Shown one piece after another: positions 46,034 to 48,459 of a stretch of DNA of 64,000 nucleotides. The translations under genes were made by a program, and so were the position numbers. The stretch lies in contig CP046866.1 of assembly GCA_009789175.1 (NCBI GenBank), forward strand, positions 3,100,001-3,164,000. The letters run 5' to 3'. The stretch's first letter is position 1; every line of letters starts with the position of its first letter. The notes beneath the pieces are model-generated. The model was not told the origin of the DNA and searched no databases. It saw nothing but the letters and a program-made list of their open reading frames with translations. This stretch comes from Salinibaculum litoreum. GTDB taxonomy: Archaea > Halobacteriota > Halobacteria > Halobacteriales > Haloarculaceae.

Positions 46034-46107
46034 TCCGCCCTCCCCGATTTGAACGGGGGGCAAGTCGATCTACAGTCGACTGCTCTACCAGTCTGAGCTA
46101 AGGGCGG
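46034..46107 (-). tRNA. tRNA-Tyr (GTA anticodon)
   Basis: A 74-base tRNA on the reverse strand. Acceptor CCGCCCT pairs with AGGGCGG and A73 follows, giving the C1-G72 pair that is the archaeal tyrosine identity element. The anticodon stem GTCGA/TCGAC encloses CTGTAGA, with anticodon GTA. The D arm GCTCAGACTGGTAGAGC and T arm CCCCGTTCAAATCGGGG are normal. No intron and no encoded CCA. Confidence 0.96.
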
Positions 46108-46251
46108 GCGCATCAACGAGTAGGCCGACTGTTGAACTTAACAATTGTCATTCGGACCGAGGCCACCCGCCGTTGTCTGTCGGACGACAGACGCGCGTCT
46201 GACTGCTGGGAAGATTGAAATACCGTGGGTGACAACGTGTATGACGAGTCG

Positions 46252-46872
46252 ATGAGCAAGATAACGTTCCGCGCTGATGACGACCTCATCCGGCAACTCG
46301 AGGAGTTCGACGCCTCGAAAAGCGAGGTCATGCGCGATGCGCTCCGGGCCTACCTCGACGAGCACACGGAGTCGTCAGACACGACTCCATCAGCCTCGCC
46401 CGACGAGGAGACGCTCGACGACCTCGTTGCCGAGCGCGTCGACGCGCTCATCGCTGACCGTCTGGAGCGGTCGTTCACGCCCCGTCAGCCACAGGATGTC
46501 AACGTAAACATCTCGCTTGATGGTGATTCCGCCGCCGCATCAGACTCCAAATCCGAGGCTGTAAACGTCGATTCTGGCGTGTCACACAGCGCGTCGAACG
46601 ACGCGTCACACGCGGCCGGCGAGCGTATGACGGACGACGGGGGCGATGAAAACGCCGATGCAAACGACAGTAAGACGTGCGCGCAATGTGGTGGAAATCT
46701 ATCGCCGTCCCACGTTTACTGTCCGAACTGCGGCGAGAAATCCTCCCGACGTGTGTTCTGCGATTGCGGTGACGAACTCCGCTCGGACTGGGCATTCTGC
46801 CCAGGTTGTGGCCGCAGAACCCCGGCAGCCGACGTTCTCGACCAGAATGCAAACGTCGAAAACACCAGATAG
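46252..46872 (+). CDS. cdrL: Cell-division regulator CdrL (RHH plus zinc ribbons)
   Basis: A 206-residue protein. Residues 1-38 form a ribbon-helix-helix domain (SKITFRADDDLIRQLEEF then ASKSEVMRDALRAYL). A long acidic linker (40-145) follows, then two zinc ribbons: CAQCGGNL...CPNCGEKS and CDCGDEL...CPGCGRR. This combination next to a short RHH gene and ftsZ2 matches CdrL of Haloferax/Halobacterium, a DNA-binding partner in the CdrS-FtsZ2 network. The ATG at 46252 begins the RHH exactly; GTGs at 46225 and 46237 are less likely. Confidence 0.88.
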   Translation: MSKITFRADDDLIRQLEEFDASKSEVMRDALRAYLDEHTESSDTTPSASPDEETLDDLVAERVDALIADRLERSFTPRQPQDVNVNISLDGDSAAASDSKSEAVNVDSGVSHSASNDASHAAGERMTDDGGDENADANDSKTCAQCGGNLSPSHVYCPNCGEKSSRRVFCDCGDELRSDWAFCPGCGRRTPAADVLDQNANVENTR

Positions 46873-46876
46873 AAGC

Positions 46877-46894
46877 CGTTTACTTAGGTAAACG
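46877..46894. promoter_or_regulatory. Palindrome CGTTTAC-N4-GTAAACG after cdrL
   Basis: A perfect 7-base inverted repeat with 4 bases between, starting 4 bases past the cdrL stop. It has the same GTnnAC half-site form and the same 4-base spacing as the GTAAGAC/GTCTTAC dyad 77 bases on, so it may be a further binding site for an RHH protein (CdrL or CdrS). Confidence 0.45.
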
Positions 46895-46901
46895 TGCCAG
46901 T

Positions 46902-47062
46902 GTCTTACGACCGCCGTAAGTTTTATTATCACATGGTCTGTGGTACTGAGTGCGTAAGACGGTCGTCTTACAGAGGGTCGCGGGCGACGTGCACACCGGT
47001 GCTGTCGTGCGGTTTGACGCTGTAAGACGTGCGGGCGTGGTGTAAACCCGCCCCCGTCTTAC
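46902..47062. promoter_or_regulatory. GTAAGAC/GTCTTAC box array in the cdrS-ftsZ2 promoter region
   Basis: The 7-mer GTCTTAC or its complement occurs at 46902-46908, 46954-46960, 46965-46971, 47022-47028 and 47056-47062. The middle two form a perfect dyad with 4 bases between, and GTAAG recurs at 46916. A TATA-like TTTTATTATC (46921-46930) sits inside the array, so binding would affect transcription of cdrS-ftsZ2. RHH regulators bind short repeated boxes, which makes CdrS or CdrL the likely ligand. Confidence 0.6.
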
Positions 47063-47080
47063 CCAAACAGGGGAACAAAT

Positions 47081-47280: not shown

Positions 47281-48459
47281 ATGCAGGATATCGTCAAAGA
47301 GGCCCTCGAACGGGACGAGCAGGAACAACAGCAGATGGACGATGTCGACGGGTTCGGCGACCCTCGAATCGTCATCGTCGGTGCGGGTGGTGCCGGGAAC
47401 AACACCGTCAACCGCCTGTACAACATCGGCGTCGACGGTGCAGAGACCATCGCTATCAACACCGACAAACAGCACCTCAAGATGATCGAGGCCGACACGA
47501 AGATACTCGTCGGCAAGTCCCTGACCAACGGGCTCGGTGCGGGCGGCGACCCCTCGATGGGCGAGCGCGCGACCGAGATGGCACAGGGGACTATCAAAGA
47601 GGTGCTCGGTGATGCCGACCTCGTCTTCGTGACTGCTGGGATGGGTGGCGGGACTGGCACTGGTGCCGCGCCCGTCGTCTCGAAGATCGCAAAGGAGCAG
47701 GGCGCAATCGTCGTCGGCATGGTGTCGACGCCGTTCAACGTCGAGCGTGCGCGGACGGTCAAAGCCGAGGAGGGACTCGAACGCCTCCGCGACGAGGCCG
47801 ACTCCATCATCGTGCTTGACAACAACCGCCTGCTCGATTACGTCCCGAACCTGCCCATCGGCAAGGCGTTCTCGGTGATGGACCAGATCATCGCCGAGAC
47901 CGTCAAGGGTATCTCCGAGACCATCACCCAGCCGTCGCTCATCAACCTCGACTACGCCGACATGACTTCCATCATGAACAAAGGCGGCGTCGCGGTGATG
48001 CTCGTCGGCGAGACACAGGACAAAAACAAGACAGAGGAGGTCGTCAAAGACGCGATGAACCACCCGCTGCTCGATGTCGACTACCGCGGTGCCAGCGGCG
48101 GCCTGGTTCACATCACTGGCGGCCCCGACCTGACCCTCTCCGAAGCCGAGGGTATCGCCCAGAACATCACCGACCGTCTGGAGGCCGACGCCAACGTCAT
48201 CTGGGGCGCGCGCATCCAGGAGGAATACAAGGGCAAGGTGCGGGTCATGGCCATCATGACCGGCGTCCAGAGCGCCCAGGTGCTGGGTCCGACCACCCAG
48301 AAACAGGCCAACAAGTCCCGGCAGGCTATCGAGGGCGTCGACGACGAGACGTTCGACGCCGCGAGCAACTTCGAGGACAACCGCGAGTTCGGCGAGACCG
48401 ACGGCGGTCGTGAGGAAGTCGAGCAGAACAACGGCCTCGACGTCGTCCGCACCGACTGA
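47281..48459 (+). CDS. ftsZ2: Cell division protein FtsZ2
   Basis: A 392-residue tubulin-like GTPase. [18 protein letters not shown] lies near residue 30-48, the tubulin signature [13 protein letters not shown] near 120-132, and the T7 loop with [11 protein letters not shown] near 220. The C-terminal domain ends in an acidic disordered tail. FtsZ2 forms the constricting midcell ring with FtsZ1 in Halobacteria. Assignment to the FtsZ2 class rests on the [13 protein letters not shown] start and on the cdrS neighbour. Confidence 0.95.

Follow-up and report, generated by a model that had tools for sequence, protein, structure and literature searches.

A heptad array conserved before cdrS-ftsZ2 in Halobacteria as a putative CdrL operator, with a CdrS-type box at the cdrL promoter

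The cdrS-ftsZ2 operon of Salinibaculum litoreum is preceded by an array of heptads, GTA(A/T)GAC (L-type), that is a putative operator of the regulator CdrL, while the paralogous regulator CdrS would read a heptad differing by one base at position 3, GTC(A/T)GAC (S-type), at the cdrL promoter and at its other targets. Together these sites probably form a reciprocal loop in which CdrS acts on cdrL and CdrL acts on cdrS-ftsZ2. The arrangement bears on how archaea set the amount of the division ring, a single base would tell the promoters of one paralogous regulator from those of the other, and the exact boxes are now at hand for mutation in tractable haloarchaea.

The window, a stretch of 64,000 nucleotides, carries the three genes in the order cdrL, cdrS and ftsZ2, with the array between cdrL and cdrS:

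46252-46872, plus strand: cdrL, coding for a regulator with RHH, CdrL_M and double zinc ribbon domains (Pfam PF01402, PF24252, PF12773); stop codon at 46870-46872
46902-46908, minus strand: box A, an L-type heptad upstream of the BRE/TATA, at -51 to -65 relative to the dyad (54 of 58 species)
46921-46929, plus strand: TATA box TTTTATTAT of the cdrS-ftsZ2 promoter, kept at -32 to -26 from the dyad
46954-46960, plus strand: box B1, the left half of the dyad, invariant across all 58 diverse species
46965-46971, minus strand: box B2, the right half of the dyad, identical in 57 of 58
47022-47028, plus strand: box C, with at most one mismatch in 43 of 58 species
47056-47062, minus strand: box D, identical in 58 of 58 and 21-29 nt 5' of the cdrS start codon
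47081-47278, plus strand: cdrS, coding for a 65-aa RHH protein (Pfam PF01402, E 1.7e-8)
47281-48459, plus strand: ftsZ2 (Pfam PF00091, PF12327)

Exact match positions bore out the count of the first-pass annotation, which had placed GTAAGAC/GTCTTAC five times within 161 bases (46902-47062); a sixth exact heptad falls within cdrL at 46670. The genome total is 86 in 3.73 Mb, and at this rate a Poisson model expects approximately 1.5e-8 stretches of 161 bp with at least five heptads per genome, which rules out chance clustering. The perfect dyad with a 4-base spacer was likewise found as described, GTAAGAC-GGTC-GTCTTAC at 46954-46971, and the TATA-like box reported inside the array sits between box A and dyad B. 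The leader of cdrS, previously thought to exceed 100 bases, was predicted at about 129 nt (46952-47080, plus strand) with a start near 46952 deduced from the distance to the TATA box. Boxes B1 and B2 lie 11 bp apart centre to centre (12-13 in some species), about one helical turn, as in RHH operator arrays.

The motif search upstream of cdrS in other Halobacteria that the first-pass annotation had proposed was run as a pattern search for GTAAGAC-N4/5-GTCTTAC in 194 Halobacteria genomes, with the reversed pattern as control. The dyad proved to be conserved in related genera, where its absence would have counted against the annotation, with exactly one site per genome in 185 of the 194 genomes and in 63 of 66 genera, while the reversed pattern had no site in the same 194 genomes. 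In all 30 loci checked the dyad precedes cdrS, which begins about 120-135 nt downstream. The nine genomes without the exact dyad all carry a variant at the same place, whose spacer is 2, 3 or 6 or whose bases are altered to, for example, GTATGAC, GTCATAC or GTGAGAC, and a CdrL-like gene stands before cdrS in every one of them; true loss of the dyad is ruled out by these variants, as is a generic promoter repeat by the single site per genome.

The layout was kept in 58 diverse promoters: box A first, then the BRE/TATA, the B dyad at the predicted start, and boxes C and D. Box A, for the most part GTAAGAC or GTATGAC and found on either strand, lies 51-65 bp 5' of the dyad (most commonly 52) and the BRE/TATA spans -39 to -26 relative to the dyad. 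Box C mostly lies 46-51 nt 3' of the dyad; in Halosimplex and its relatives the distance is 71-72 nt, approximately two helical turns more. Box C is absent in 15 of the 58 species, and one dyad-variant genome is without both box C and box D. These comparisons of promoter sequence support the interpretation of the boxes as a conserved regulatory array. Between the TATA box and the dyad a further element, TNTGTGGTA (46937-46945), is strongly conserved in most species; it is not explained by the heptads and is perhaps a proximal promoter element.

A second dyad had been noted just after cdrL:

46877-46894, strand not assigned: dyad CGTTTAC-TTAG-GTAAACG, just 3' of the cdrL stop

Its presence at this position was confirmed, but its membership in the system as a general component was ruled out, as it is perfect in only four of 58 diverse relatives. 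The half-site GTAAAC at -66 from the array dyad recurs in 16 of the 58.

CdrL is the most likely ligand of the array. CdrL ChIP-seq in Halobacterium salinarum yielded one reproducible site, upstream of cdrS-ftsZ2, with binding resolved to the level of the locus (PMC7439475), and the text of that study does not name a CdrL motif, a box layout or box conservation. The first-pass annotation had suggested that the boxes may be sites of both CdrS and CdrL, allowing autoregulation. The CdrL part of this suggestion gained support, with an array unique in each genome and the sole reproducible CdrL ChIP site at the same locus, whereas direct CdrS autoregulation through the array did not. CdrS ChIP-seq in Haloferax volcanii identified 18 sites, including ftsZ1, dacZ, psmB and hisB, and the cdrS promoter was not among them (PMC8406309); the boxes carry GTA and not GTC; and the 58 cdrS promoters hold S-type heptads at chance level (2 against 1.4 expected), in comparison to 268 L-type heptads where 2.5 were expected. 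CdrS is therefore disfavoured as the reader of the array. It is important to note that FLAG-CdrS was expressed from a plasmid in the Haloferax ChIP experiment, and the missing CdrS peak at the cdrS promoter is for this reason not proof.

The CdrS box was read from the promoter DNA of published targets in other Haloferax species, and not from the published logo. The ftsZ1 promoter holds GTCAGAC-GGTC-GTCTGAC, the dacZ promoter holds GTCAGAC as a single heptad rather than a full dyad, and the psmB promoter holds a single heptad, GTCTGAC or GTCAGAC, in most species and has lost it in one. An independent search for GTCAGAC-N4/5-GTCTGAC in 116 genomes returned sites 5' of ftsZ1, hisB, dacZ and sepF (genes identified by Pfam), and because the heptad was seen both at the target promoters and in this search, the CdrS box was taken to be GTC(A/T)GAC. 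At position 3, more than 99% of the 271 heptads from the arrays have A, and 97% of the S-type heptads at the cdrL promoter have C. The RHH strand residues are R-V-T-L-R in CdrS versus K-I-T-F-R in CdrL, a difference that could be the source of the base preference.

Perfect CdrS-type dyads precede sepF, a gene whose expression fell when CdrS was knocked down in the published work but which the ChIP list does not include. In S. litoreum, CdrS-type dyads at C1:1320403, C1:37872 and C1:2751541 stand before a bactofilin-like gene, a divergent ParA-like/archaellum FlaD/E pair and hisB, a set of candidate CdrS targets with ties to the cytoskeleton, segregation and motility. Just behind a CdrS-type dyad there is also, repeatedly, a conserved small protein of approximately 76-84 aa, one copy of which has no Pfam match.

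The promoter of cdrL, adjoined on its upstream side by a tRNA-Tyr gene (46034-46107, minus strand), contains both types of heptad:

46186-46203, plus strand: S-type dyad GACAGAC-GCGC-GTCTGAC, a probable CdrS site, matching GNCWGAC-N4-GTCWGAC
46213-46222, plus strand: cdrL TATA-like element GATTGAAATA, part of a block conserved 26-35 nt 3' of where the S-type dyad begins
46239-46245, plus strand: lone L-type heptad, GTATGAC, where cdrL transcription is predicted to start

Only 10 sites in the S. litoreum genome match GNCWGAC-N4-GTCWGAC. When 51 diverse cdrL promoters were surveyed, GTCWGAC-N4/5-GTCWGAC with at most two mismatches was present in 40, versus 0.4% of shuffles, and with at most three mismatches the S-type dyad was in register at -63 to -76 in 35, mostly a few bases 5' of the cdrL BRE/TATA block. 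These promoters hold 50 S-type heptads (1.0 expected) and 20 L-type heptads (1.4 expected); of the latter, 13 are at the predicted start, where 13 of the 51 species have an L-type heptad at -19/-20 relative to the MSK lysine codon. The CdrS-type dyad at cdrL suggests the reciprocal CdrS-CdrL loop, and CdrL autoregulation through GTATGAC at the cdrL start is possible. The loop is perhaps not present in all species: the Haloferax cdrL promoter holds one S-type heptad only, and the absence of cdrL from the Haloferax CdrS ChIP list (PMC8406309) accords with that single heptad.

In the proposed mechanism, each CdrL RHH dimer would occupy one heptad GTA(A/T)GAC, with box A filled 5' of the TATA box, the B pair at the start site, and boxes C and D in the leader; B1 and B2 would be occupied on successive helical turns. 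CdrL would act on the cdrS-ftsZ2 operon alone, because the dyad occurs once per genome, whereas its paralogue CdrS would read GTC(A/T)GAC at the ftsZ1, hisB, dacZ, sepF and cdrL promoters. We infer that CdrL reads the array heptads and that it represses cdrS-ftsZ2, because its sites lie over and downstream of the start. CdrS would activate cdrL, as its dyad lies just 5' of the TATA box, an argument also made for ftsZ1, and the loop would then amount to negative feedback. The published CdrL deletion strain carried second-site mutations and is thus no guide to whether CdrL represses or activates. Published data also show that cdrL is co-expressed with cdrS-ftsZ2 under metal overload; with the zinc ribbons of CdrL, this makes a metal or redox input to CdrL at most conceivable.

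The distribution of CdrL suggests how this division of labour may have arisen. CdrL_M was detected in 18 of the 24 Halobacteria listed, and nowhere else in the phylum sample. Other Halobacteriota without CdrL carry GTCNGAC boxes near or 3' of the TATA box at the cdrS-ftsZ promoter, and in one outgroup the boxes follow a period of approximately 11, GTCAGAC-N4-GTCAGAa-N4-GTCAGAC. The simplest reading of this small outgroup sample is that CdrS once controlled the cdrS-ftsZ promoter and that its paralogue took over in Halobacteria as the box changed by one base. CdrL would thus appear to have taken over an ancestral promoter, with the box of the old regulator now standing before cdrL itself.

The outgroup boxes, which are of the CdrS type, are also an argument that the array may be, or may also be, a CdrS operator that provides direct CdrS autoregulation. 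Unlike the symmetric S-type heptad, the L-type heptad is asymmetric, with one GTA half and one GTC half; a heterodimer of CdrL and CdrS could account for this difference and perhaps bind the array. The single base between the two heptads and the decrease of ftsZ2 by approximately 1.3-2.2-fold in a cdrS deletion (PMC7439475) fit direct action of CdrS. We nevertheless consider this reading unlikely, as the array is intact in Haloferax species and yet CdrS ChIP did not recover the promoter there, cdrS promoters show no enrichment of S-type heptads, and an asymmetric heptad can be read by an RHH homodimer. That the array binds some other regulator, neither CdrS nor CdrL, is highly improbable. The link of CdrL to the heptad is putative for S. 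litoreum, which leaves some room for such a protein, but the single genomic site coincides with the unique ChIP peak of CdrL, the array adjoins cdrL, and array and CdrL co-occur across Halobacteria with CdrL_M absent elsewhere in the phylum sample.

Alternatively, the heptads may be kept mainly as stems of the 5' leader (B1-D, B2-C and a C-D hairpin) that control translation or stability of cdrS-ftsZ2. Two such stems were predicted in the window:

46954-46962, plus strand: RNA stem P1, 5' side, pairing with 47054-47062
46964-46973, plus strand: RNA stem P2, 5' side, pairing with 47020-47029 (10/10 complementary)

The predicted S. litoreum leader has a folding z of -3.5, and B1 pairs with D and B2 with C in most of the 58 diverse leaders (mean z -3.6). 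The flanks of the B2-C stem covary, with three pair types each at +3 and +4 (p<=0.001, above every shuffle, where shuffles ignore phylogeny), and most control pairings were flat in this test. An alignment-based count gave 15 double-change cells versus 6.2 in shuffles that likewise ignore phylogeny, and the count fell to about half or less in slid structures. Furthermore, a published mismatch between mRNA level and ribosome occupancy for the cdrS-ftsZ2 operon (PMC8303175) leaves room for a leader RNA role. Against a primary role of the RNA, box A is conserved, and can be inverted, although it is untranscribed. No change was seen in B1 or D and only one in B2, which indicates constraint on the sequence and not on pairing alone. 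The nearly invariant heptad pairs carry little information on pairing, and alternating inverted repeats fold in this way automatically. P2 is missing in some clades, and this fold is out of reach both for those without box C and for the genome that lacks C and D. Rfam covariance models matched only the tRNA gene and no leader or riboswitch, and a known RNA family was ruled out. Retention of the heptads mainly as leader stems is very unlikely on this evidence, and the leader structure is probably real in many clades and secondary to the DNA array.

A combined version would add the RNA to the CdrL operator and reciprocal loop favoured above: the four transcribed heptads would double as CdrL operators and as leader stems read by CdrL, with its zinc ribbons and RHH domain, or by another factor, atop a loop that replaced ancestral CdrS control by a one-base change. 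We regard this as doubtful; if true, the dual DNA/RNA role would tie the transcription of the division operon to its translation.

In the literature searched, which lay outside subscription journals and preprints, the CdrL site, its partner logic and its evolutionary origin were undescribed, and several known systems offer a comparison. The operator of NikR, an RHH protein whose RHH domains are among the PDB matches of CdrS, is GTATGA-N16-TCATAC, and its half-site is contained in the box variants GTATGAC/GTCATAC. Spacing and multiplicity differ from those of the array, however, and NikR has an ACT domain where CdrL has zinc ribbons instead. In the heptad arrays of the Omega repressor and in the Arc operator, RHH dimers bind short arrayed sub-sites, with an 11-bp centre spacing in Arc. 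The array resembles both in its short arrayed sub-sites, and B1 and B2 share the Arc spacing, whereas the archaeal array extends from 5' of the TATA box to about +110 and overlaps a leader with predicted structure. The CdrL region of Halobacterium salinarum (PMC7439475) is alike in locus and single-site specificity; no motif was named there, and the heptad array is added here. The CdrS motif of Haloferax volcanii (PMC8406309) is symmetric and lies upstream of promoters, its heptad pairs with a 4-bp spacer being read here from ftsZ1 DNA. Its heptad GTCWGAC has C at position 3, whereas the heptad of the array, which is not in the CdrS ChIP list, has A.
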